A DNA stretch of 64,000 nucleotides. It comes from Escallonia rubra. Lineage: Eukaryota; Streptophyta; Magnoliopsida; Escalloniales; Escalloniaceae. Positions 23,985-51,539 of this stretch are shown one piece after another. The position numbers were made by a program, and so were the translations under genes. Where the stretch lies: positions 62,001 through 126,000 of the forward strand of contig JAVXUO010000385.1 of the NCBI GenBank assembly GCA_033065855.1. The letters run 5' to 3'. The notes beneath the pieces were generated by a model. It saw nothing but the letters and a program-made list of their open reading frames with translations. It did not search any database and had not been told where the DNA came from. Each line of letters starts with the position of its first letter. Within the stretch, counting starts at the first letter, position 1.

Positions 23985-26513
23985 CTAATTGCGCGACGCC
24001 CTCGTCGCAACCTCCTCGTGATAGCGATCCACGAGGTCTTCGAACTGTCCGAGCTCTTCCGCTAACTCCCAAGTCGCTTCATGCTCCGACAATCCCTTCC
24101 ACTTGACCAAGTAGTGCTGTTTTGGTGGAACACCTCGTCCTTGTTCAAGCCTATCCCCAAGCACGTACTCGGCCTCGCGCCTTTGCAAGTCATGCAAAAC
24201 TTGCGATGCATCTAAGAGTTTAGCCTCATCGGCTTGACTCTCCCCCTTGACTTGTCGGCACACATGACAAGTCTTGACACACATTTGCACTTCCTTCTTC
24301 ATTTCAGGCCAAAAGTATGCCGTAGTCACCAAGGCATATGTCCGTCGATGCCCCGGATGCACCGTCGACTGAGTGTCGTGACTCCCTCGTATGACCATTT
24401 TCCTTAGGTCTCTCCACTTCGGCACGTACACTCGTCCATCCTTTGTGTAGAGTAGGTCTCCTTTCACCCGATATCGTTGGGTCTTCCCACTCTTCACAAG
24501 CTGTAGCAACTCCTTGGCTAAGGGATCGCGTTGTAGGCCCTCCTTGATTAGCTTGATGATCTCCCCCTTGGCCTTCGAAGTAGTCATCAACTTTTCCTCC
24601 TTTGGCGGCGCCATCCCACATGGTACCACGTTTTGTAGCTTGGCCCCCCGGTCAAGCTTGTCTTGATCGCCCACCTTCCTCCTAGGTGGTTGCCGCTTCT
24701 CAAACTCGTGCAGCACAACACGATCTTCAACCTTGAGACTTGCCAAGTAAGTGCCCTCACTCTTCTTGGCTTCCTCCCTTTCGACTTCTTGCACTAGTCG
24801 CATACCCGATAGCCGCATAGAAGTCATGGTGCTCGATGTTCCCTCGAACAAAGGCACCACACAAGCCGCGCCTCGCTCCATTATGCACATCGCATTGTTG
24901 TACGGTGACACAAGAGCGTTCACCTGTCGCAAGAAATCAAGGCCTAACACCACCTTGAAATCATCCATCTGCGCGACAGAGAAATTCACGAACCCCTTCC
25001 ATTTGCCAAGACACATTTCTACCCGTCGAACTGTGCCTTGTAGGGGCTTTGCTTCGGCGTTGACGGTTTTTAGCCAACCTCCCCCGTCAACCACGTTGAG
25101 GCCCAACCACTTGGCCTCTTCCATCGTGATGAAGTTGTGAGTCGCCCCCGTATCCACTGACACATGAGCGAGCTTCCCATTCAACTTCGCTTCCATGTAG
25201 AGCAACCCTTCGCTCTTAGAAGCTTGTCCCTCCCCTGTCGGGACTTGCGGCACATTTTTCTTTTGGAGCGCATTGAGGACTTGTATCGAGCCTATGTGCA
25301 CCGTCTCGCACTCGGCCTTCTCCTTTTCCTCAATCAAGGCAACCATCTTGCCTTGCCGCGGGCAATCCCTTGCCCAATGCGGTCCTCCGCAAAAGAAGCA
25401 ATCCTTAAGCTTGCGGCTCGCACGTCTTTCTTGTAGCTTGCCGTGGCCCTCGATCTTGCTTGTGCTAGCATGCTTGTCCCCTTTGTGCCACACCTTAGGG
25501 CTCTCTCCCCCACCATTGGCGTGGTCGCCTTCCGAAGCTTCATCTTCCCACTTTGGCTTTGAAGATTCACCACCTCGATCGTACTCCGTCAACGACTCCG
25601 CCATTGCTATGGCTTCATCGACATCCTTCACGCCCCGGCGTTGAAGTTCCTTTTTGGTCCAACTTTGGAGGCCGTCGACAAAGTTAAATAGAAGATCTTC
25701 CTCCGCCATATTCGGAATATGAAGCATAAGTGTAGTAAACTCCTTCACATATTTGCTTATGTTACGCTTATGCCTCAATTCCTTCATCTTCTTTCTCGCT
25801 TCGTAGGCTACATTCTCCGGATAGAACTGCTTTTTGATCTCCCTTTTGAACACCTCCCACGTATCTATGGTGTACAACCCCTTTTCTATCTCGCAATGCT
25901 TTCTACGCCACCATAGAGTTGCGGTATCCGTAAGATAGAGAGTCGCAGTTCTTACCTTTGTCTTTTCATCCGTGATGCTAGCACCTTCGAAATATTGCTC
26001 CATCTGCCATATGTAGTTGTCGAGCTCCTTGGCATCCCGCTTGCCTCCGAACTCCTTTGGCTTTGGCGTGTCCACCCTTGGACTAGGAGTGACAACCGCT
26101 CCACCCGCGATAGCTCTCTTGCACATCGCCGCGTCTTGCCTTATCTCCTCCACGCCAACCTTTACCACATCGAGTTGTTCTTGTAAACTTGTGAACAACT
26201 CCGTGAACCTTTCACGTAGCTCGTCTTGGGCGCCAACCGCCCTCTTGAGCGACTCGAGCTCTTCTAAGACGTGATCCTCCAACGTCTGTAGATTTTGCTC
26301 GAACATTCCCACATGATCCTTGACATCACCCATAGCAATCTCCAAGCGACCCGTTCGGCCATCCAACGAAGCAAGTGCATCACTAGACTTGCTTTGGCCT
26401 CGACCACCCTTCTTCCCACCGGCGGGTGGTAATGGATCTCGCCCACGCTCGACCACGACCACATTCTCCTCGGCCATTCCGGATGCTCCAACGCTAGTAT
26501 CCTTGCCTGCCAT
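23985..26513 (-). CDS. Gag-protease-H2C2-chromodomain polyprotein (RT/RNase H/integrase core absent)
   Basis: One open frame of 842 codons from ATG 26513; the frame is open upstream to a TTG at 26549. Domains in order: coiled-coil-like N-terminus (residues about 55-135), Ty3-type gag (about 150-330, with YIWQMEQYFEG, LWWRRK, LLFNFVDGLQSW), zinc knuckle CFFCGGPHWARDCP (about 385), aspartic protease with VDTGATHNF (about 455), a linker, an integrase H2C2 zinc finger (about 690-745, with HPGHRRTYALV and CHVCRQVK), then a chromodomain (about 780-835, HYLVKWKGLSEHEATWE). The RT-RNase H and DDE core expected between protease and chromodomain are missing, yet the frame is unbroken. Function inferred: virus-like-particle protein with chromatin-binding tail, mobilised in trans. 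The stop codon abuts the polypurine tract. Confidence 0.9.
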   Translation of the reverse strand: MAGKDTSVGASGMAEENVVVVERGRDPLPPAGGKKGGRGQSKSSDALASLDGRTGRLEIAMGDVKDHVGMFEQNLQTLEDHVLEELESLKRAVGAQDELRERFTELFTSLQEQLDVVKVGVEEIRQDAAMCKRAIAGGAVVTPSPRVDTPKPKEFGGKRDAKELDNYIWQMEQYFEGASITDEKTKVRTATLYLTDTATLWWRRKHCEIEKGLYTIDTWEVFKREIKKQFYPENVAYEARKKMKELRHKRNISKYVKEFTTLMLHIPNMAEEDLLFNFVDGLQSWTKKELQRRGVKDVDEAIAMAESLTEYDRGGESSKPKWEDEASEGDHANGGGESPKVWHKGDKHASTSKIEGHGKLQERRASRKLKDCFFCGGPHWARDCPRQGKMVALIEEKEKAECETVHIGSIQVLNALQKKNVPQVPTGEGQASKSEGLLYMEAKLNGKLAHVSVDTGATHNFITMEEAKWLGLNVVDGGGWLKTVNAEAKPLQGTVRRVEMCLGKWKGFVNFSVAQMDDFKVVLGLDFLRQVNALVSPYNNAMCIMERGAACVVPLFEGTSSTMTSMRLSGMRLVQEVEREEAKKSEGTYLASLKVEDRVVLHEFEKRQPPRRKVGDQDKLDRGAKLQNVVPCGMAPPKEEKLMTTSKAKGEIIKLIKEGLQRDPLAKELLQLVKSGKTQRYRVKGDLLYTKDGRVYVPKWRDLRKMVIRGSHDTQSTVHPGHRRTYALVTTAYFWPEMKKEVQMCVKTCHVCRQVKGESQADEAKLLDASQVLHDLQRREAEYVLGDRLEQGRGVPPKQHYLVKWKGLSEHEATWELAEELGQFEDLVDRYHEEVATRASRN

Positions 26514-26563
26514 AGTTGCTCCTTGCTTGGCACGACTCGTCGTAACCAAGCTCTGATACCACT

Positions 26564-27078
26564 TGTCACGGACCGAACTTCCCTAAGCCGAAACCGTGCG
26601 GCACTTAGCTAGATCAAGCCCCCGCTTGCTCGGCTAAGTCAGCCTAACCGTAGAGCTGGGCGAAGTTGGAAACAAATATGCAGCGGAACACAAGAGGTTG
26701 GGGAAAGGATTCCCAATACACTACTTGGAGAAAGCCTATAATACTTGAATACAAGAATGTCTTGGATGTGTCTTGGATGCTTTGGCCAAATGAGGCCTTG
26801 GCTATTTATACTAGTCCACCTCCTCAACGAACGGTGGAGATACATTCGATCCTACGGATCCTATTATGCTAGAATACTTTCCTACTCTAGAATATTCACA
26901 CATGTTACACATTTTACACATGTTCAAAATAGAATAGTGTAGAGAAGTCCGGAACCTTCCGGAAGCCTTGCCTTGTAATCGCCAAGTAAGCGTCCACGAA
27001 GCGTCCCGTAAGCGCCTAATGAGCGCCCGCATGGCGTAACCTCTAAAAATCAGCCTCCTTAGCAAACGGTCCGTGACA
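26564..27078 (-). repeat. 5' LTR of the chromodomain element
   Basis: 515-bp partner of the repeat at 23448-23973. On the minus strand it is followed after 2 bases by the tRNA-Met primer-binding site. Confidence 0.95.
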
Positions 27079-39541: not shown

Positions 39542-39583
<42 letters not shown>

Positions 39584-39625
39584 GAACCGATCCACACCCA
39601 CCGGTGGATAAAAAAAATTTCTCCA

Positions 39626-39915
39626 CCCAATCGCATGTAAGAGAAGCGGTTGGGTACGATTTCTTTTTGTCGTGGGCCCCACCACAAAAAAGCACTCCTT
39701 TTTTTTTAGCTCAACCGCATGTAAGAGAAGCGGTTGGGTATGATTATCTTTTTGACGTGGGCCCCACCACAAAAAACCACTCCACCCAACCGCTTCTCTT
39801 ATACGCGGTTGGGACAATTTTTTTTTTGCCCGACCGCTTCTCTTAGAAGCGGTTGGTAAGCACTTTTTTTTTTAACAATTTTTTTAAAAAACCAACCGCA
39901 TATAAGAGAAGCGGT
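39626..39915. repeat. Subterminal hairpin repeats, left arm
   Basis: At least five copies of a short palindromic unit, AACCGC-(about 12 nt)-GCGGTT, typically CAACCGCATGTAAGAGAAGC followed by GGTTGG, alternating with GTGGGCCCCACC-type palindromes. The mirror set lies at 51025-51320. The arrangement suggests transposase binding sites; that is inference. Confidence 0.8.
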
Positions 39916-40014
39916 TGGTGGCTTTTGCGTAACTTTTTTTTGGGTGGTTCCCACACAAAAAATTTCAGATTTTTTGGTTGGCTCCCACCAAAAAAAAAAA
40001 AAAATCGAGCACAA

Positions 40015-40333
40015 GCCTGCCACGTGGCGTCCCCCACGATTGCCACGTGGCCCAACCGCGTGAAGGGGCGCCGGTTGGTTGATGGCCCTGCCACGTGGTC
40101 TCCCCAGCGCCTGCCACGTGGCCCAACCGCATGAAACGGCGCCGGTTGGTTGATGGCCCTGCCACGTGGCCTCCCCAGCGCCTGCCACGTGGCCCAACCG
40201 CATGAAGGGGCGCCGGTTGGGGCGATGGCCCTGCCACGTGGCCTCCCCCGCGCCTGCCACGTGGCCCAACCGCGTGAAAGGGCCCCGCGGCTTGCCCTTC
40301 CCCTGCCACGTGCCCCCCCCCCCCCCCACGCGC
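40015..40333 (+). promoter_or_regulatory. G-box array plus CACGCGC motif, left arm promoter
   Basis: About nine CACGTG cores, most within the palindrome GCCACGTGGC, lie in roughly 72-85-bp tandem units between 40017 and 40310. CACGCGC, the published FHY3/FAR1 binding core, follows at 40327-40333. The block sits upstream of the transposase leader exon. Confidence 0.75.
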
Positions 40334-40478
40334 GTCCTTCCATCCCCCGTGACTGTCCTTCCCTCCCCCGTGACTGTCCTTCCAAATTTTTTTTTGCAGC
40401 CTATTCGGGCACTTTGCAGAGACCACTCACGGGTATTTTTTTTCCCTCTTTTTTCTTCTCTCTCCCTCACTTTTCTCT

Positions 40479-40601
40479 CTTTATAATCCCCTCCCCCCAA
40501 CCCTTCTTCTCCACAAACCAAAAAATTTTAGCGCTAGAAGATCGGTGGATAATTGCTAGAAGATCGGTAGATTTTTCTTCAAATACATCAAGTCACAACA
40601 A
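40479..40601 (+). promoter_or_regulatory. TATA-like box and non-coding first exon for the transposase
   Basis: CTTTATAAT at 40479-40487 is followed by a leader ending CACAACAA/GTAAGTATT, a strong donor at 40601/40602. The matching acceptor GATTTCAG ends at 42638, eight bases before the start ATG at 42646. The first exon therefore lies inside the inverted arm and the coding exon outside it. Confidence 0.6.
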
Positions 40602-42645
40602 GTAAGTATTTTGAATTTCTTTATAATTCAATGTTAGGTTTATACAAATCAGCGTATTACATTTAGCGTATTATATTTATAGCGATTCAAAATAGCGTAT
40701 TACATTTATAGACAGTTTTTCACGAATTTATAAAAAATAACTAGAGCAAGATTTTGCCAAAGTGCAAAAAAGAGACCCTAGTTATTCTGAAAGGATCTGT
40801 ATCAGGTAAAAATTTCAGATTTTTCCAAAGACTGTAAAGGGGCTAACTGATACGGGGAACCGTGTACCTTCGCAGTCTAATTTAAAATACCAAGCTAGCG
40901 CGATTTCACGCGAAACTTTTACGAGAACCCTAGGATGTTGGGAAGTTCCATTCCCCAGGATTTCGCGCCATTCCGGAGCCGTTAGCTATTTTTTTGGCCG
41001 AACGGCCCTTTCAGCGCTCGCCCTTTAATTAGACAGTTTTTTCACGGATTTATAAAAAATAGCTAGAGCGTGATTTGGCCAAATTGCAAAACAGAGACCC
41101 TAGTTATTCTGAAAGGATCTGTATCAGGTAAAAATTTCAGATTTTTCCAAAGACTGTAAAGGGGCTAACTGATACGGGGAACCGTGTACCTTCGCAGTCT
41201 AATTTAAAATACCAAGCTAGCGCAATTTCGTGCGAAACTTTTACGAGAACCCTAGGATGTTGGGAAGTTCCATTCCCCAGGATTTTGCGCCATTCCGGAG
41301 CCGTTAGCTATTTTTTTGGCCGAACGGCCTTTTCAGCGCTCGATCCGGACACCGGTTCGCGATTTTTGCGCGAAAAATCCGTAAAGTACTTTTTAGGCCA
41401 ATGATGAACTCACAAAGCGTAAAGTAGCATTTCGAGGCACCTTTGAGATTTTTCCTGATGCCAGGGGCATTTTGGTAATTTGCCACCCTGCGAGGGGTGT
41501 TTCGGTAATTTTCCCGCGCCAAGTTTTTAATTAGACAGTTTTAGTCCAGGAATGTAATCACAGAACCTGAAATGTTGTTTTGAAGCTGGTTCGGGGGCGT
41601 TGGGGTGATAGTGAACCCCTGGGGGCATTTCGGTAATTTGCCGCTCATCGGGGACTATTTTGCTAGGAAGGATCCAGCTTAAAGGGCCATACCTTAAAAT
41701 AAATTTTAGTTCAGCAAAGGGTGTCAGACACCCGAAAACTTTTATTGTTCCGGGTGAATTCAGGAACTTGTGACGCACCGGCGATGACTGCCAGGGGGTA
41801 TTTTGCATAAGTAGCGGGTGTTTTGGTAACTTTCCCCCTTTAAAATTTTTCCTGATATATTTGGTATATAATTGACGTAATACATTTAAAAACTTGACTT
41901 CAAAGCGGTTTTGAGGTCTTGGGGGTGTAGGGGCCATCGGGGGGTATATTGCTATATAACCACGTTGGCGCTAAATTCAGTGAGAACTAGCGTAATTAAG
42001 CGTTCGGAGTGGTGGGAAGTGAGGATTTGTTTTAATACATTGAAATAATGACTATTGCTAATGTGTTGGTAAACTAGGTTAAAGATCCAGGAATGTAGTT
42101 TTGGAATGTAAATATTATAACCTGATAGTGAACCCCCTGGGGCATTTCGGTAATTTGCCGCTCATCGGGGGCTATTTTGTTAGGAAGGATCCAGCTTAAA
42201 GGGCCATACTTTAAAATAACTTTTAGTTCAGCAAAGGGTGTCAGACACCCGAAAACTTATTTTGTCCCGGATGAATTCAGGAAGCTTAAAATGCCGTTTC
42301 AAAGCACTCCGAACGATTTTTTGATGCCAGGGGGCATTTTTTGGTAATTCGCAGCCCCGAGGGGGGTATTTTCATAATTTTGCAGCGTTAAGTTTTTTAA
42401 AGGACTTCTTAGTCCAGAAATGTAAGCAAAGCACCTGAAAGGTTGTTTTCAAGCTGATTTGGGACGTTAGGGTGATAATGAACTCCCCGGGGGCATTTTG
42501 CTAATTTGCCGCTCGTCGGGGGCTATTTTGATAATTTTACATTATACGAATTTTTCCAGCAATTACGTTTAAATAATTTTTATTCTTCTTTCTATGACTT
42601 GTTGATAATCGTATTGGTTTTTATTTTTTAGATTTCAGTATAAAT

Positions 42646-44937
42646 ATGGATGCAACTGGAGGAAATATTTTTTGTGAAGGTTCTGATCCACCTTACTTGG
42701 GTCAAGTTTTTCAAACACCGGACGAAGTCGAAGCATACTACAGAGCATATTCGAAAACGATGGGTTTCGGTATTAGAACTAAGACGACTAGAAAACGGGT
42801 GAATACCGATCAAATTGGTGCAAGGTTATTTGAGTGTCATAGAGGAGCACCGCATGTACCCCCGGTCGTTCAGATCAGTGACGAAGGGACAACAAGACAA
42901 AGAAAACGGGACACATTTCCGGGTACCGGCTGCAAAGCCCATGTGTATGCAGTACACCGGAAAAATGAAAACCATTGGGTTGTGACGGGTGTGGAGTTGA
43001 GCCATAATCATCAGTTTTGCACCCCTAGTATGATTGGTCAAATTCATCAACACCGAGAAATAAGCGCGGCACACAGACAACTGATTTCAACAATGGCCGA
43101 CGCTAAAATTCCACCTTCTAAGATGATGGGGGTTTTCTCAAGCCAGGCTGGGGGGATTGACAAGTTGACTTTCAACGAAGTTGACCTTCGAAATGAACTC
43201 CGTGCTCAGAGGAGAGAGTCTTTCGGTCAGATCGATTCTCAAGCTACACTTGATATCTTCAGGTGCCTTCAGAGTGAGAATTCTGGATTTTTCTACAGTC
43301 TCCAAGTGGATGATGAGGACCGCATTAGTACTATATTTTGGGCGGACCCCCGTTCTAGAGCTGCTTACCAAAATTTTGGGGATGTTGTGACGTTTGACAC
43401 CACATACCGCACCAATAAGTACTCTATGCCTTTTGCTCCGTTCACCGGGGTGAACCACCACTATCAGTCAATCTCATTTGGCTTTGCCCTGCTTAGGGAT
43501 GAGACGGAGGAGTCATTTACGTGGTTATTTGAAACGTGGCTTAAAGCAATGTACCATATTCCTCCAAAGACCATCATCACCGACCAAGATCTGGCAATGA
43601 AAAATGCAATCGCTAAGGTCCTTCCAGATACTCACCATGGCCTGTGCACATGGCACATAAGCAACAAATATCCCGAACGACTTCACAATGTATATGCAAA
43701 CCATCCGTCATTCAGGACTGACTTTAATACATGTGTGAAGAAATCGTTGACGGTAGACGTGTTCGAGGAGAGGTGGGCCACATTAATGGATGACTACGGT
43801 TTGCACAATCATGGATGGTTACAATCGTTGTATGAGCTCAAGACACAGTGGGTCGGTGCCTACACCAAGAAGTTTTTTGCAGCCGGAATGACTACGACAT
43901 CGAGAAGCGAAGCTATGAATTCATTCTTTGATGGGTACGTAGGCCAGTCTTTAAGTATAGCGGAGTTTGTACTAGAGATGCAGAAAGCCCTTGAGAGGCA
44001 ATTGTACCGTGAGAGAGAAGCCGACGCGGCTACAGTTTACAGAGAAAGAGCCATACTACTTTGTTCACCTTTGGAGGCTCATGCGGCTCAAGTCTATACG
44101 AAGGAAATGTTTCGACAGTTTCAAGAGGAACTATTAAAGTCGAATCAATATGGCATGACAAAGTTGCACGAGTTTTCCACCAGAGATCTCAAGGTTTATG
44201 CTTTGACAAATGTGACGAATTATGCCAATCCGTGCTCTTCGTCGGCTCCGAGGAACAGAAGACATTTTACCGTAGCTAAATGTATGGACACCGGGTTGGT
44301 AAATTGCAACTGTCAACTCTTTGAGCATAAAGGTATACTTTGTCGACATGCGTTGAGGGTTTTGAGCGCCAAGAATGCAACTCAAATCCCTCCACAGTAT
44401 ATCTTGGAACGGTGGACGAAGGAAGCCAATAGAGTCCACGGTCACATTCCTTACGTGCCCAGTGTTTCAGTTGATTTCAGGCAATCTGAGGCCCTGCGAT
44501 ATAATCATCTTTGTAACATCATGCACGGTTTATCAATGGATGCAGCGTCAACATTTGATGGGTACACTTATCAAGTTGAAGCAGCCGCACGGGATCATGC
44601 TAAGCATGCACAGTTTAGGATGGCATTACCAGAAAGCCGGGACCCTCGACCGAGTCCAGCCGGTAGATTCAATCGAGCCAAACAGCCAGTCATTGACGGC
44701 ACTAGCATGCAAGGTGAGGAGGACGACATTTTTGATCCAATTATTTCTCAAACAAAATGGCGAAAACGAGAAATCCGCATGAAGAATCCGATTGAAAAAG
44801 CAACGGGTCAAAAAAAATTGCGAAAGTGTGCGTTGTGTAATAAGATGACTGATCATAACAAGAGAAACCATTATAAAGTGTTAGGTATCGAACCTGACAG
44901 TATGGTCGAGGAGGACGATGAAGAGGAATTGTGTTAG
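42646..44937 (+). CDS. FAR1/FRS-like Mutator transposase (763 aa)
   Basis: Intact frame encoding a MULE transposase of the FAR1/FHY3 type. The FAR1 DNA-binding domain lies at residues about 25-130, with AYYRAYSKTMGFGIRTKT, then CHRG, GCKAH and HNHQF. The MULE DDE core follows, with Asp in TFDTTYRTNKY (about 250), Asp in IITDQDLAMKNA (about 313) and Glu in TSRSEAMNSFF (about 421). A SWIM zinc finger, CNCQLFEHKGILCRHAL, lies at about 553-570. The C-terminal tail CALCNKMTDHNKRNH resembles a zinc knuckle lacking its last Cys. Predicted role: binds the element's ends and excises or inserts it. It is a transposase rather than a domesticated host FRS gene because it lies between matching inverted arms. 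The leader exon is probably in the left arm. Confidence 0.95.
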   Translation: MDATGGNIFCEGSDPPYLGQVFQTPDEVEAYYRAYSKTMGFGIRTKTTRKRVNTDQIGARLFECHRGAPHVPPVVQISDEGTTRQRKRDTFPGTGCKAHVYAVHRKNENHWVVTGVELSHNHQFCTPSMIGQIHQHREISAAHRQLISTMADAKIPPSKMMGVFSSQAGGIDKLTFNEVDLRNELRAQRRESFGQIDSQATLDIFRCLQSENSGFFYSLQVDDEDRISTIFWADPRSRAAYQNFGDVVTFDTTYRTNKYSMPFAPFTGVNHHYQSISFGFALLRDETEESFTWLFETWLKAMYHIPPKTIITDQDLAMKNAIAKVLPDTHHGLCTWHISNKYPERLHNVYANHPSFRTDFNTCVKKSLTVDVFEERWATLMDDYGLHNHGWLQSLYELKTQWVGAYTKKFFAAGMTTTSRSEAMNSFFDGYVGQSLSIAEFVLEMQKALERQLYREREADAATVYRERAILLCSPLEAHAAQVYTKEMFRQFQEELLKSNQYGMTKLHEFSTRDLKVYALTNVTNYANPCSSSAPRNRRHFTVAKCMDTGLVNCNCQLFEHKGILCRHALRVLSAKNATQIPPQYILERWTKEANRVHGHIPYVPSVSVDFRQSEALRYNHLCNIMHGLSMDAASTFDGYTYQVEAAARDHAKHAQFRMALPESRDPRPSPAGRFNRAKQPVIDGTSMQGEEDDIFDPIISQTKWRKREIRMKNPIEKATGQKKLRKCALCNKMTDHNKRNHYKVLGIEPDSMVEEDDEEELC

Positions 44938-45119
44938 GGTTAATGTTTCAGTTGTATAACGAATAACTTTTATAATGTTTAAATTTGTGATTTGATTTGT
45001 TGAATCTTTAATTTGTGATTTGGTTTGTGGATTATTGAAAATTTTTGAATGGCATATTTGCGCACGCTTTAGCGCCCAATTCATAGCTTCCTGAAAAATC
45101 TTGTAATTTGTTTTGTTCA

Positions 45120-45610
45120 TTGCACTTTAGTCACGCTTTAGTGGCCACTTCATAACTTTCGAAAAATCTTTAAATTTTTTTGTCACTTTTTTTTCGCTCA
45201 TTGCACATGAGGCGCGCTAGTTAGCCCATTCTTATGTATTTCAGCGAAAAACGAGACACGTTATTTTTTCGGTTTTCCTGTGAAGGGCCTATTCGGGCAC
45301 ACTTTAGGGGTCAATTCATAACGTTCGAAAAATCTTGTAAATTTTTTTGTCACTTTTTTTCCGCTCATTGCACATGAGGCGCGCTAGTTAGCCCATTCTT
45401 ATGTATTTCGGCGAAAAACGAGACACGTTATTTTTTCGGTTTTCCTGTGAAGGGCCTATTCGGGCACACTTTAGGGGCCAATTCATAACGTTCGAAAAAT
45501 CTTGTAAATTTTTTTGTCACTTTTTTTCCGCTCATTGCACATGAGGCGCGCTAGTTAGCCCATTCTTATGTATTTCGGCGAACAACGAGACACGTTATTT
45601 TTTCGAATGC
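45120..45610. repeat. 167-bp tandem repeat between the convergent genes
   Basis: About 2.8 copies with anchors TTGCACATGAGGCGCGCTAG at 45201, 45368 and 45535; a degenerate partial copy precedes at 45050-45170. It occupies the 3' flank shared by the two convergent genes and may contain both poly(A) regions. Confidence 0.85.
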
Positions 45611-45714
45611 GTCATATGAACTGTATATTCGCGCACATTTTAGCGCCAAATTCATAGCATGCGAAAAATTATGTACATTTCTTTTTGGTACAGTTTTTTG
45701 TAACATCACAGCAG

Positions 45715-48446
45715 CTAGCCACGCACGTCAGGATAATGGTAATGAAGTCGTCTGGCTTCATTCTTTTTCAGTTCCCAGGCTATCCTATACCTAAACGTCA
45801 AGGCATCCTTCCTAGTCCACGAGGAGTGTTTGAGCACTTCCGAGCGAGCAATGTAGTCCATGTACTTGAGGACGTAAATCCCGCAATCGTTACCGTTATA
45901 TTGCTTTGGTCGGTCCTTTATCATCACGACCGTCCAAGGCTCCCCCCGTGGCCGTCCGCACGCTAGCGAGAGGAGAGTAGTCTGCATCCAACAATAAAAT
46001 CGAGAATCAAGCCTATGAAACAACAACAATATACTATGAGCCAAGGTCAAAAAATAAAAACTAACCACTAAAGTGATGTAGTCGTTGTACATCTGTGCCA
46101 GCAGCTGTCCAGGCTCGTCCTCCCTTAGGCTATCGTATATGTGAACCGTTCTGAACGCTGGATGGAGAACTAATAGGAACCAGTGGTGCCCATGAAGACA
46201 AGGTATCATGATAAGGTTCGCATCAGCAGCGGGACATTGATACTCTGCGTTCATCATGCATAACACGTTTCGACCTGGTGTCCAATTACTCCTGTTGCCC
46301 CCTTGCCTCCATTGATGGAATTCCCGGATCGCTAATTCCACAAAATGAGTGGGATACATGTTAAGCTTACAGTATTCAGAACGGTTAAATTGATGCTCTC
46401 TAATCCGGAGCAGATCTATGTAAGCGTTGATGACAAAATTTGAAAGATCTGTCTCCGGCGCCAACATTCTGATATCCGAATGACCTAGGAGTGTCCCAAG
46501 AGGGAAGTCTGTTGAATTGACAGGCTCATGCCCGAAGTAGTGCCGGTCGATCCAACCCATCTTCTCCGGCCTCAATGGCTTCGTCGCTTGTCCTTTGTTC
46601 GATCGGAATCTTGGGCGCGAGGCATGGATTCCTACTTGGGGAACCTGACTCTGGCACTGAGAGTCGTATGCGTCAGGAGGAGGGCGACTATACGGCTCCC
46701 ACACCTGACTCGAAGTTCCGTAGTCGTACGCGTCAGGAGGAGGGCGACTAGACGGCTCCCCTTGGTAACCCCGGTACGCAAGACTAAAGTTTTGAACATC
46801 AGTCTTGTACCTCTCAATGGACCTCTTGATATTGTCAGGAGCCTGCGCGACAAACCAGTCAAACGACTCCAGCTGCTTGAACACGTCAGTGGCCTGGTCA
46901 ACCTAAAAAACATGCATAGAAAATATGGCTAATCATTTCATTTGATGGTCGATACGCGTGCGCAAATAAATTATCAAACAACACTAGCATGACTTACAAT
47001 GGCCAATGCCCAGAACTGGTCATAGACCTCACGTGGCGCATACGATTTGGTCCTCACTTGGGAAGGGCGATTCACCCTCGTGCGCGTCACCCTGAGAAAC
47101 CACTGTAAGTAGTCCTCAGTACTGATGCCGTCGTGCTTCAGCGATACAAGGCTGTCATACGTTTCCTGCCAGGTATTCCATTGTTGCACCTCGTCACCCA
47201 ACACAGTCAAGGCATTAGCCACCTCGAAGTTCGGCCCTCGACCACCCCTGTATGGCCGCATGTCTACAACGGGTTTCGGAATCCCTTGTGGACAGCCAGC
47301 TTGCTTCATAGCTCGATCGGGCATCTGAAACTCACATTCTTCGAAGTGAATGAGCGGCACCCGAACCAAACCTGCAAGCACGTACGACACCGGAAGTTGC
47401 CAACACAACTCATCCAACAGATGCATCACCTTGTCATATGGCTGCCACGCCACCTGGTATGCATCCAGCATCTCTAGTTCCCCCCGATAGAACTGTAGAT
47501 GGTTGTGAGGGTCTACCCGTCTCCTCCTCCGGTTGGTCGGAGGCCCCCAGGCCCACACCCTAGGCCACGTCTCATCGGAATCTACCAACGGTTGTGGACG
47601 ACCCGTGGGTAGCCTCTCGTAAGACCAAACCTGTGAACGCAAACATTATATGGAATTAGTAATGAATCCCGAATATATTGACTAAGGATCCGGATAAGAA
47701 AATAAATGCTCATACCTGTAATAGAGTCAGGCAGGCGGCAATGGACTTGGCACCGTTTCTCGTAGCCTTATGCAGTGCTCGATATAGGTGCGCAAGGACA
47801 GCTGAACCCCACGAATACGAGTATACCTCGTCAAGATCCTCCAATAACACCATATACTTCGGATGCACCGTGTTTTTCGAATGCGTCGGAAGTAATATGG
47901 TCCAATAATATACAGAAGGTATGCCCTCGTATACGTCACGAAATCATGACGAGTGTATTCATCCGGTAGCACGCCATACTGCTCTCTCAGCCATTTAAGC
48001 TTGACGCCGTTTGTTGTAAGAGCTGCCCTTGGAATTCCCGGAAAATAATGCCTAGCCATATTCGCTACGGATGCAGACGGCACGCTCAGAGTAACGGGTC
48101 TGCCGTGACATGGGATTCCAAGTATATATCCGACGTCCTCTAACGTAACAGTCATTTCACCAAACCGAAAATGAAATGAGTTCGTCTCGCTCCTCCATCG
48201 TTCAACTAGAGCGGATATAAGGCAATCGTCGTGGCGATACCATTTCCCGCAATCGGTGAACAGGCTTAAATTTTGACCGTGTATAAGGGCTTTTTGTTCC
48301 TCGTTTAGTACCCACTCTTCAATTCCTCTTGTGGTTTGAATTGTTTCCAAAACACCCCTATCGACACCGTCAAATACGTGCCTCGCGACGTGGTCATCGT
48401 CATCGTATAGGATTGATGTATCATGAGGTCCGGGGTTGAAATCCAT
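45715..48446 (-). CDS. Plant mobile domain - Ulp1-like (C48) cysteine protease fusion, 4 exons, one frameshift
   Basis: Exons: 48446-47716, 47630-46998, 46902-46066, 45981-45715. Exons 1-2 encode a plant mobile domain (aminotransferase-like/MAIN family): WYRHDDCLISALVERWR, GEMTVTLEDVGYILGIPCHG, YTRAYLLYIIG, then after a frame change VLLEDLDEV, LAHLYRALHKATRNGAKSI, LTLLQ. Exon 3 has a duplicated SRPPPDAYD motif and the first half of a C48 peptidase; exon 4 has the rest. The catalytic triad is present: His in HGHHWFLLVLHP (about 696), Asp in VHIYDSL (about 711), Cys in GNDCGIYVLKY (about 768). Exon 1 is 731 nt where 732 would keep phase: one base is missing near 47914, after YLLYIIG. Such proteases remove SUMO-like tags; here the substrate is unknown. 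It is placed like the second gene of MuDR. Either this copy is damaged or there is a sequencing error. Confidence 0.85.
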
Positions 48447-50327
48447 ATCTCTAAGAACAAAATATAATCGTAAACCAACTTAGCGTCCATAATATTTACA
48501 TTCCAAAACTACATTCCTGGATCTTTAACCTAGCTTACCAACACATTAGCAATAGTCATTATTTCAATGTATTAAAACAAATCCTCACTTCCCACCACTC
48601 CGAACGCTTAATTACGCTAGTTCTCACTGAATTTAGCGTCAACGTGGTTATATAGCAATATACCCCCCGATGGCCCCTACACCCCCAAGACCTCAAAACC
48701 GCTTTGAAGTCAAGTTTTTAAATGTATTACGTCAATTATATACCAAATATATCAGGAAAAATTTTAAAGGGGGAAAGTTACCAAAACACCCGCTACTTAT
48801 GCAAAATACCCCCTGGCAGTCATCGCCGGTGCGTCACAAGTTCCTGAATTCACCCGAAACAATAAAAGTTTTCGGGTGTCTGACACCCTTTGCTGAACTA
48901 AAAGTTATTTTAAGGTATGGCCCTTTAAGCTGGATCCTTCCTAGCAAAATAGTCCCCGATGAGCGGCAAATTATCGAAATGCCCCCGGGGGTTCACTATC
49001 ACCCCAACGCCCCCGAACCAGCTTCAAAACAACATTTCAGGTTCTGTGATTACATTCCTGGACTAAAACTGTCTAATTAAAAACTTGGCGCGGGAAAATT
49101 ACCGAAACACCCCTCGCGGGGTGGCAAATTACCAAAATGCCCCTGGCATCAGGAAAAATCTCAAAGGTGCCTCGAAATGCTAATTTACACTTCGTGAGTT
49201 CATCATTGGCCTAAAAAGTACTTTACGGATTTTTCGCGCAAAAATCGCGAACCGGTGTCCGGATCGAGCGCTGAAAGGGCCGTTCGGCCAAAAAAATAGC
49301 TAACGGCTCCGGAATGGCGCGAAATCCTGGGGAATGGAACTTCCCAACATCCTAGGGTTCTCGTAAAAGTTTCGCGCGAAATTGCGCTAGCTTGGTATTT
49401 TAAATTAGACTGCGAAGGTACACGGTTCCCCATATCAGTTAGCCCCTTTACAGTCTTTAGAAAAATCTGAAATTTTTACCTGATACAGATCCTTTCAGAA
49501 TAACTAGAGTCTCTGTTTTGCACTTTGGCCAAATCACGCTCTAGATATGTTTTATAAATCCGTGAAAAAACTGTCTAATTAAAGGGCGAGCGTTGAAAGG
49601 GCCGTTCGGCCAAAAAAATAGCTAACGGCTCCGGAATTGCGCGAAATCCTGGGGAATGGAACTTCCCAACATCCTAGGGTTCTCGTAAAAGTTTCGCGCG
49701 AAATCGCGCTAGCTTGGTATTTTAAATTAGACTGCGAAGGTACACGGTTCCCCGTATCAGTTAGCCCCTTTACAGTCTTTGGAAAAATCTGAAATTTTTA
49801 CCTGATACAGATCCTTTCAGAATAACTAGGGTCTCTGTTTTGCACTTTGGCCAAATCACGCTCTAGATATTTTTTATAAATCCGTGAAAAAACTGTCTAA
49901 TTAAAGGGCGAGCGCTGAAAGGGCCGTTCGGCCAAAAAAATAGCTAACGGCTCCGGAATGGCGCGAAATCCTGGGGAATGGAACTTCCCAACATCCTAGG
50001 GTTCTCGTAAAAGTTTCGCGCGAAATCGCGCTAGCTTGGTATTTTAAATTAGACTGCGAAGGTACACGGTTCCCCGTATCAGTTAGCCCCTTTACAGTCT
50101 TTGGAAAAATCTGAAATTTTTACCTAATACAGATCCTTTCAGAATAACTAGGGTCTCTTTTTTTCACTTTGGCAAAATCTCGCTCTAGTTATTTTTTATA
50201 AATTCGTGAAAAACTGTCTATAAATGTAATACGCTATTTTGAATCGCTATAAATATAATACGCTAAATGTAATACGCTGATTTGTATAAACCTAACATTG
50301 AATTATAAAGAAATTCAAAGTACTTAC

Positions 50328-50467
50328 TTGTTGTGAGTTGATGTATTTGAAGAAAAATCTACCGATCTTCTAGCGATTATCCACCGATCTTCTAGCGCTA
50401 AAATTTTTTGGTTTGTGGAGAAGAAGTGTGGAGAAGAAAGGTTGGGGGGAGGGGATTATAAAGAGAG
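50328..50467 (-). promoter_or_regulatory. TATA-like box and non-coding first exon for the PMD-Ulp1 gene
   Basis: Inverted copy of the left leader: TATA-like ATTATAAAG near 50455-50463 and donor CACAACAA/GTAAGTAC at 50328/50327. The acceptor TTGTTCTTAG ends at 48451, five bases before the ATG at 48446. Confidence 0.6.
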
Positions 50468-50608
50468 AAAAGTGAGGAAGAGAGAAGAAAAAAGAGGGAA
50501 AAAAAATACCCGTGAGTGGTCTCTGCGAAGTGCCCGAATAGGCTGCAAAAAAAAATTTGGAAGGACAGTCACGGGGAAGGGAAGGACAGTCACGGGGGAT
50601 GGAAGGAC

Positions 50609-50935
50609 GCGCGTGGGGGGGGGGGGGGCGCCACGTGGCAGGGGAAGGGCAAGCCGCGGGGCCCCTTCACGCGGTTGGGCCACGTGGCAGGCGCGGGGGA
50701 GGCCACGTGGCAGGGCCATCGCCCCAACCGGCGCCCCTTCATGCGGTTGGGCCACGTGGCAGGCGCTGGGGAGGCCACGTGGCAGGGCCATCAACCAACC
50801 GGCGCCGTTTCATGCGGTTGGGCCACGTGGCAGGCGCTGGGGAGGCCACGTGGTAGGGCCATCAACCAACCGGCGCCCCTTCACGCGGTTGGGCCACGTG
50901 GCAGTCGTGGGGGACGCCACGTGGCAGGCTTGTGC
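50609..50935 (-). promoter_or_regulatory. G-box array plus CACGCGC motif, right arm promoter
   Basis: Mirror copy of 40015-40333, with CACGCGC on the minus strand at 50615-50609. It is placed to drive the minus-strand plant-mobile-domain/Ulp1 gene. Confidence 0.75.
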
Positions 50936-51389
50936 TCGATTTTTTTTTTTTTTTTTTGTTGGGGCCAACCAAAAAATCTGAAATTTTTTGTGTGGGAGCC
51001 ACCCAAAAAAAAGTTACGCAAAAGCCACCAACCGCTTCTCTTATATGCGGTTGGTTTTTTAAAAAAATTGTTAAAAAAAAAAGTGCTTACCAACCGCTTC
51101 TAAGAGAAGCGGTCGGGCAAAAAAAAAATTGTCCCAACCGCGTATAAGAGAAGCGGTTGGGTGGAGTGTTTTTTTGTGGTGGGGCCCACGTCAAAAAGAT
51201 AATCATACCCAACCGCTTCTCTTACATGCGGTTGGGCTAAAAAAAAGGAGTGCTTTTTTGTGGTGGGGCCCACGACAAAAAGAAATCATACCCAACCGCT
51301 TCTCTTACATGCGGTTGGGTGGAAAAAAATTTTTTATCCACCGGTGGGTGTGGATCGGCTCCCTATATATATATATATATATATATATA

Positions 51390-51525
51390 GGGTCGTGATC
51401 CATTGCTAGCGCTAGCACGTTGCTAGCGCTGTTTTGCCGTCCGCTATATAATATAGCGGACGATAATTCACCGTCCGCTACATTATATAGCGGACGGTGC
51501 TAGCGCTAGCTACGGATCAGCTCCC
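51390..51525. mobile_element. 136-bp palindromic MITE with MULE-like ends
   Basis: The ends GGGTCGTGATCC and, inverted, GGGAGCTGATCC continue into inverted GCTAGCGCTAGCAC. Inside are two hairpins built on CCGTCCGCTA...TAGCGGACGG. The flanks are TA repeats (ATATATATA before, ACATATATA after; 8 of 9 match). The terminal motif GGGa.c.GATCC resembles that of the giant element 27 bp to the left. Confidence 0.75.
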
Positions 51526-51539
51526 ACATATATATATAT

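Follow-up and report, generated by a model that had tools for sequence, protein, structure and literature searches.

The Mutator-like elements (MULEs) of plants that lie closest to the system analysed here have been described under several names. MuTAnT is reported with 218 copies and with an element containing a complete mudrA-like open reading frame (ORF) (PMC4486113), and the plant Jittery sub-group is tabulated with FAR1, one ORF and terminal inverted repeats (TIRs) of 39-292 bp, the plant mobile domain (PMD) not being listed for it in the table consulted (PMC6446971 Table 1). DUF1985 is a domain of the VANC anti-silencing proteins, which carry variable tandem peptide arrays and have tandemly repeated noncoding targets (PMC5735166), and some proteins of VANC type (KIU) also carry Ulp1 (PMC5735166, PMC10398659, PMC13317346). 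Genic PMDs fused to a protease domain are mentioned as well (PMC5418596, PMC7156037). In this work we analyse a 64,000-nucleotide stretch of the Escallonia rubra genome (assembly GCA_033065855.1, contig JAVXUO010000385.1, positions 62,001 to 126,000), hereafter the window, which contains a complete MULE copy with two genes, one for a FAR1/Jittery-type transposase and one joining a PMD to a C48 (Ulp1) protease, hereafter PMD-Ulp1. The element is a real transposon, a high-copy, TA-microsatellite-targeting MULE of FAR1/Jittery type, and we put at roughly 0.45 the probability that it is autonomous in type and that PMD-Ulp1 is an anti-silencing factor like VANC and KIU.

With MuTAnT and TAFT (PMC4486113; TAFT via the same paper) the element shares insertion into (TA)n, GGGG/CCCC-type termini, long modular foldback TIRs and a Jittery-like transposase; unlike them, it measures 11.8 kb, with arms of 2.5-2.9 kb and a second gene. 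Jittery-like MULEs of grapevine and melon likewise have ULP coding sequence downstream of a Jittery-type transposase, in either orientation (PMC2528002); the available part of that account mentions no PMD, whereas in the Escallonia element PMD and ULP are joined in a single gene of four exons, which converges with the transposase in 37 of 38 listed pairs. VANC and KIU (Kaonashi) of the VANDALs are also MULE accessory proteins with a DUF1985-type domain (a remote match in our case) and a variable region holding tandem peptide arrays, KIU also having Ulp1, and tandem repeats occur in noncoding DNA as well; the Escallonia element differs from them in its FAR1 transposase, its 2.5-2.9 kb arms and a PMD match far above that to DUF1985, and the likeness is one of sequence alone (PMC5735166, PMC10398659, PMC13317346). 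MuDR has a convergent second gene too, and most elements of the MUDR group carry a PMD in antisense (PMC6446971), but here the transposase is of FAR1 type and the second gene is PMD-C48. Finally, MAIN/MAIL-type PMDs and the PMD-C of MULE transposases share the PMD itself, for which capture by MULEs and an anti-silencing use have been proposed; in PMD-C MULEs it is fused to the transposase, whereas here its fusion partner is Ulp1, in a gene distinct from that of the transposase (PMC5418596, PMC7156037).

Materials and methods

All genome counts refer to one plant genome, that of the host, in which searches scored the best 40, 112 or 150 candidates; the resulting lists favour intact copies. Host contigs were queried with the DNA of the transposase and of the accessory (PMD-Ulp1) gene, and paired ends were sought through the terminal 125 bp, both ends being taken for seven copies and the whole locus for L070, which with the window copy gives nine. 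Ratios of nonsynonymous to synonymous divergence (dN/dS) were computed by the Nei-Gojobori method between the window family and three subfamilies, skipping stop codons and with bootstrap limits.

Results

Copy number and pairing of the two genes

The transposase query yielded 40 scored matches at 98-100% identity (the best 40 of 1641 first-look candidates) and the accessory-gene query 40 scored loci (the best 40 of 1149), both including the window copy. Adjoining sequence was checked at 30 of the 40 transposase places, and three of the other ten recur in the accessory-gene list. A PMD-Ulp1 gene stands beside all 30 near-identical transposases checked, window copy included, with its 3′ end at most 1.5 kb away in 29 of them and slightly further in L026; the matches at L018 and L019 span only 26 and 53 nt, as the locus ends there, and L018 was confirmed by the accessory-gene search. 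The same convergent gene accompanies transposases that are 87-91% identical (L051, L052, L053) and one that is about 50% identical (L054). At four further transposase loci, the downstream stretch holds PMD and C48 in L072-L074 and C48 in the stretch covered of L071, and L075 on C84 has a PMD-C48 gene like that of L054, with a MULE match listed on the opposite strand. Among the matches listed, 25 of the 26 pairs of PMD exon 2 and MULE no more than 7 kb apart are convergent, as are 37 of the 38 pairs of exon 1 (DUF1985 match) and MULE no more than 8 kb apart, the two sets overlapping. An earlier reading of the window made without database searches (the sequence-only reading) had proposed a mobile two-gene element with many copies at distinct insertion sites; this is borne out, and the layout also occurs in the other subfamilies sampled.

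When L051, L052 and L053 are compared with the window family, synonymous divergence (dS) is unlike between the transposase and the C48 domain of the same pairs, with values of 0.089 and 0.331, respectively, against L051, and of 0.143 and 0.094 against L053. This inequality suggests that modules may have been exchanged between subfamilies.

Insertion sites, ends and arms

Runs of TA, 6-52 nt long, flank all nine copies with paired ends, including the window copy, whose tracts the sequence-only reading had not remarked on; in detail, the right end of L069 is minus its last bases and the right-end TA run of L070 is broken by a C. Because the flanks are TA runs in all nine, the target-site duplication (8-11 bp in the FAR1/Jittery group) cannot be delimited. 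Termini of the GGG(G)/(C)CCC kind and foldback modules are present, as in TA-targeting MULEs, and the insertion habit is that of MuTAnT and TAFT. Immediately after the right TA tract of the window copy comes a 138-bp GGG...CCC inverted-repeat insertion resembling a miniature inverted-repeat transposable element (51390-51527), with a further TA tract behind it, and one microsatellite thus holds two TA-targeting elements; similar sequence is also found at the flanks of element copies L058 and L063.

The inverted arms of 2.5-2.9 kb seen in the sequence-only reading are confirmed (Table 1), and their length and copy number rule out an origin by chance repeats. Complementarity is mostly 95-98% across the aligned blocks, the right arm having one additional 322-bp unit, and the arms thus form TIRs far longer than those tabulated for the plant Jittery group. 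They are made up of nested repeats, with CAACCGC/GCGGTTG dyads at the termini, a set of four 71-bp units, and 322-bp units, and CAACCGC occurs 25 times in the element (12 in the left arm, 13 in the right) versus three times in the remaining 52 kb of the window. The TATA-like and splice-donor motifs of the left arm have counterparts at 50462 and 50334 in the right one, and an acceptor-like stretch precedes the ATG of PMD-Ulp1 as it does that of the transposase. These motifs suggest that the arms may carry a promoter and 5′ leader for both genes, which would be transcribed inward. In L082 (C1579), the noncoding 167-bp array between the genes is expanded relative to the 2.8 copies of the window element.

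Table 1. Features of the element in the window (positions are those of the window)
Feature	Position	Strand	Basis
Complete MULE copy, 11,782 bp, termini GGGAACCGATCC.../...GGATCGGCTCCC	39582..51363	.	Arm comparison and eight further copies by paired ends
Left flanking (TA)19 tract, target microsatellite	39544..39581	.	Sequence
Right flanking (TA)13 tract	51364..51389	.	Sequence
Left inverted arm, ~2.5 kb (weaker match on to 42283)	39582..42118	+	Self-comparison
Right inverted arm, ~2.9 kb	48489..51363	-	Self-comparison
Terminal dyad modules CAACCGC-N11-GCGGTTG, candidate transposase-binding or foldback modules	39628..39917, mirror 51029-51317	+	Motif count
Four 71-bp units rich in GCCACGTGGC	40016..40300, mirror 50652-50936	+	Repeat analysis
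TATA-like site (40480) and consensus splice donor CAACAA/GTAAGT (motif from 40595; slash, exon end), candidate promoter/leader	40480..40608	+	Motif
Two 322-bp repeats (right arm: three, 49265-50220)	40709..41342	+	Repeat analysis
Splice-acceptor-like stretch TTTTTTAG directly 5′ of the transposase ATG	42624..42645	+	Present in 30/30 family loci examined, window copy included
FAR1/Jittery-type MULE transposase, 763 aa, open; candidate DDE D251, D313, E422	42646..44937	+	Domain scan and motif
Tandem array of a 167-bp unit (2.8 copies) where the 3′ ends of the two genes converge	45132..45605	.	Repeat analysis
PMD-Ulp1 exon 4, with the stop codon and, in PKQYNGNDCG, the catalytic Gln and Cys	45715..45981	-	Copy alignment, motifs
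PMD-Ulp1 exon 3, encoding the linker plus the C48 domain (His in HHWF, Asp in IYDS)	46066..46902	-	Domain scan, motifs
Linker peptide array of 2 tandem units (SRPPPDAYD...)	46663..46752	-	Motif reading
PMD-Ulp1 exon 2, second half of PMD	46998..47630	-	Domain scan, copy alignment
PMD-Ulp1 exon 1, first half of PMD; frameshifted in window copy	47716..48446	-	Domain scan, copy alignment
One-base deletion private to window copy, approximate site	47901	-	0/12 other copies have it

The transposase

The domains of the transposase are FAR1, MULE and SWIM, and the same set is found in L051, L054 and L055, while DBD_Tnp_Mut, the mudrA-type domain, is absent from the window transposase at E 0.1, with FAR1 in its place. 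The spacing of its candidate DDE residues, 62 and 109, compares with 62 and 110 for D337, D399 and E509 of JITA (assigned by motif), and the assignment to the FAR1/Jittery MULEs comes from domains and this candidate spacing rather than from a tree including Jittery itself. Its frame is open in 19 of 30 loci, among them the window copy, in which the 763-codon FAR1/MULE transposase had already been read as intact. The label MuDR-like that came with that reading holds for the layout of two convergent genes, and the arms carry candidate counterparts of the promoters that MuDR has in its TIRs; the transposase is of FAR1/Jittery type and the insertion habit that of MuTAnT/TAFT.

The PMD-Ulp1 gene

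The GT-AG splice sites of PMD-Ulp1 are kept in those other copies that cover them, and the catalytic His, Asp, Gln and Cys motifs in 13 of 13 copies of the family as well as in the nine copies of other subfamilies examined. In the window copy, the frame shifts within the PMD, where a base present in all 12 other aligned copies is missing near 47901. The sequence-only reading of a convergent four-exon gene, joining PMD to C48 with an intact triad, therefore stands as to layout, splicing and catalytic motifs, and an intact gene in this particular copy is ruled out by the exon-1 deletion. Among the ten copies in which all four exons were read, six are open, three are frameshifted (window, L049 and L040) and one has a stop (L044); both genes are open in five of the ten. 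The peptide array of the linker counts 2-5 units among 13 copies of the family, and lineage B has different arrays. A search for relatives of the L051 Ulp1 exon in the PDB returned none up to E 0.1.

Likeness to DUF1985

The PMD region remotely matches DUF1985, at E 6.8e-6 in the intact copy L039 and, with most of the model covered, at E 9.8e-8 in L051. A search of the host genome with DUF1985 gave 145 matches, at least 59 of them directly followed by PMD-Ulp1 exon 2, and those on C567, C949, C1136 and C2034 pass the Pfam cut-off when in-frame neighbours are counted. DUF1985 has no match in L076, a PMD gene taken as genic in type (C922:1288700-1290000); PMD genes of this other type account for four matches on that one contig, each in a single frame and scoring 373-384 bits, all within a stretch of about 19 kb. 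From these matches, a link between PMD and DUF1985 appears suggestive.

Selection

Between the window family and the three subfamilies, dN/dS is 0.47-0.53 for the transposase, with an upper bootstrap limit below 1, and 0.44-0.65 for the PMD, with upper limits of 0.61-0.92; it is 0.77-0.86 for the linker, and among transposase, PMD, linker and C48 only the first two have upper limits below 1. The PMD limits and the retained catalytic motifs therefore point to a constrained PMD and to a protease that evolves fast outside its motifs. Among variants within the family, only the singletons of the transposase show constraint, an equally low value arising in 10 of 500 neutral draws.

An accessory-only lineage

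In L078 (C1441) and L083 (C233), the transposase has been deleted and the arm comes straight after the PMD-Ulp1 gene; of three accessory loci compared, L083 is without a transposase end and L081 and L082 have one. The 201-bp deletion junction is found at full length and 98-100% identity in 40 of 40 scored places, query locus included (the best 40 of 2140 first-look candidates), and among the matches listed a PMD exon-2 or C48 match adjoins it in 25 of the 40. Stops occur beside the junction in one of 14 exon-2 matches and one of 17 C48 matches, again among listed matches, which favour intact copies, and one accessory-only copy, covered for exons 2-4, has these exons open and the motifs intact. 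One lineage has lost the transposase, kept the accessory gene and amplified.

Another element in the window

On the minus strand, at 23985-26582, an 865-aa open frame contains a Ty3 capsid/gag domain, an aspartic protease, an integrase H2C2 zinc finger and a chromodomain, and reverse transcriptase and the integrase core were not matched in it at E 0.001. By its domain content, it is a chromovirus-like element that has undergone internal deletion and keeps a single long open frame.

Discussion

How the two genes may work together

In the mechanism that we propose, the transposase would bind the arm repeats, cut at the GGG/CCC ends and insert the element into TA tracts, and both genes would be transcribed inward from promoters and leaders in the arms. 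The least certain step is that PMD-Ulp1 would, in the manner of VANC and KIU, serve as an accessory factor against silencing. Its PMD, or DUF1985-like, part would recognise the repeated noncoding DNA of the element itself, its variable repeat linker might tune or space the contact with DNA, and its Ulp1 part would strip SUMO or ubiquitin from silencing proteins on the element, such that copies stay expressed. Because its own accessory gene is frameshifted, the window copy would need to rely on PMD-Ulp1 from other copies.

Several observations weigh against an anti-silencing role. The DUF1985 matches of L039 and L051 lie below the Pfam cut-off; the domain has no match in the frameshifted exon 1 of the window at E 0.1, is not listed for exon 1 of L054 at E 0.01, and scores weakly against lineage B (E 0.011-0.054) and L077, another type of PMD (E 0.0047). 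The best domain match is by far PMD itself, and DUF7745 matches L039 about as well as DUF1985 does (E 4.5e-6, just over its cut-off) and lineage B better, for which reason the PMD-DUF1985 link is not proof. VANDALs are described with degenerated TIRs, unlike the long arms of the Escallonia rubra element (PMC5735166, PMC10398659, PMC13317346). On the side of selection, dN/dS of C48 is 0.66-1.04 with intervals including 1, indicating no significant constraint, and further C48 pairs reach 1.5, and 2.2 on few changes, so that, motifs apart, the protease might be drifting; shared variants in the PMD number 13 nonsynonymous to 2 synonymous, in a test that has no power for the accessory gene. In the accessory-only lineage, the gap at the junction on C306 is too short for the protease exons, and the open frames of these copies may be due merely to youth. 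Copies lacking the gene, which the sequence-only reading had named as evidence against a two-gene system, do occur: L070 (C2359:83491-88912) is a gene-less 5.3-kb foldback consisting of the two arms only, between TA repeats, and in L055, a copy of a diverged subfamily, a related transposase has a stop and the PMD-Ulp1 gene is absent from the stretch covered.

Other explanations

The sequence-only reading had the PMD-protease replace mudrB, and a role as cofactor in integration, target choice or transposase stability would agree with the convergent second gene of MuDR and with the presence of this gene beside the transposase across subfamilies, and would speak to a (TA)n preference that calls for some explanation. 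We regard such a role as rather unlikely and as the weaker reading, the DUF1985 match, the variable linker array and the C48 domain fitting VANC/KIU better. Against a cofactor role, TA-targeting is also reported for MuTAnT, whose autonomous element is described with a mudrA-like transposase ORF (PMC4486113). Moreover, amplification of a lineage without transposase that keeps the accessory gene would be more readily expected if the accessory protein acts on chromatin, though a trans-acting cofactor might behave likewise. It is similarly doubtful, in our estimation, that a host PMD-protease gene was captured once, in Pack-MULE fashion, and has been carried without function since. Gene capture is frequent in plant MULEs (PMC2528002), and a C48 dN/dS indistinguishable from 1 is what a passenger would show; against it stand a PMD dN/dS below 1, the conservation of splice sites and catalytic motifs from one subfamily to another, the recurrence of the layout in L054, whose transposase is only about 50% identical, and open frames in the listed copies of the transposase-less lineage. 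The DUF1985 match, the variable linker arrays and the Ulp1 domain together therefore favour the VANC/KIU-like role over both cofactor and passenger.

That PMD-Ulp1 is an element-encoded repressor or competitor, dampening damage to the host or the activity of other copies, strikes us as quite improbable. The genic PMD proteins MAIN and MAIL1 do silence transposons (PMC5418596, PMC7156037), but for PMDs captured by MULEs an anti-silencing use has been suggested (PMC5418596), and the accessory PMD resembles DUF1985 whereas the PMD of L076 does not. The chance that assembly created an inverted duplication around an ordinary FRS gene, which the sequence-only reading had raised against itself, is practically nil: no support for it was found, and it is refuted by the nine copies, on different contigs, whose paired ends lie in TA tracts, and by many near-identical coding copies.

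Novelty and implications

The sequence-only reading had not recognised the combination as a described family, a view that holds in part. ULP sequences beside Jittery-like transposases (PMC2528002) and PMDs in MULEs (PMC6446971, PMC5418596) are already published, and the combination of PMD-Ulp1 with a FAR1 transposase is a variant of these. The open-access literature searched, which does not extend to subscription papers such as the melon paper, yielded neither a fusion of PMD and Ulp1 next to a FAR1 transposase nor a link between PMD and DUF1985. It is a speculative idea, and more probably wrong than right, that PMD and the DUF1985 of VANC are one ancient transposon domain, that this FAR1-type MULE would represent a second, TIR-bearing lineage of sequence-specific anti-silencing, and that accessory-only copies would be "silencing-escape" elements retaining the protector gene and borrowing transposase.

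If PMD-Ulp1 does act against silencing, transposon-encoded anti-silencing would extend past the VANDALs to another MULE clade with intact long TIRs, and the PMD, which the host uses for silencing in MAIN/MAIL1, would be linked to VANC. Motif-specific anti-silencing proteins are of interest as tools for epigenome editing, as proposed for VANC (PMC5735166). For the Escallonia family itself, related copies that carry both genes, just the accessory gene or neither of the two would then constitute a natural experiment, offering a direct test of whether such a protein protects its own copy.

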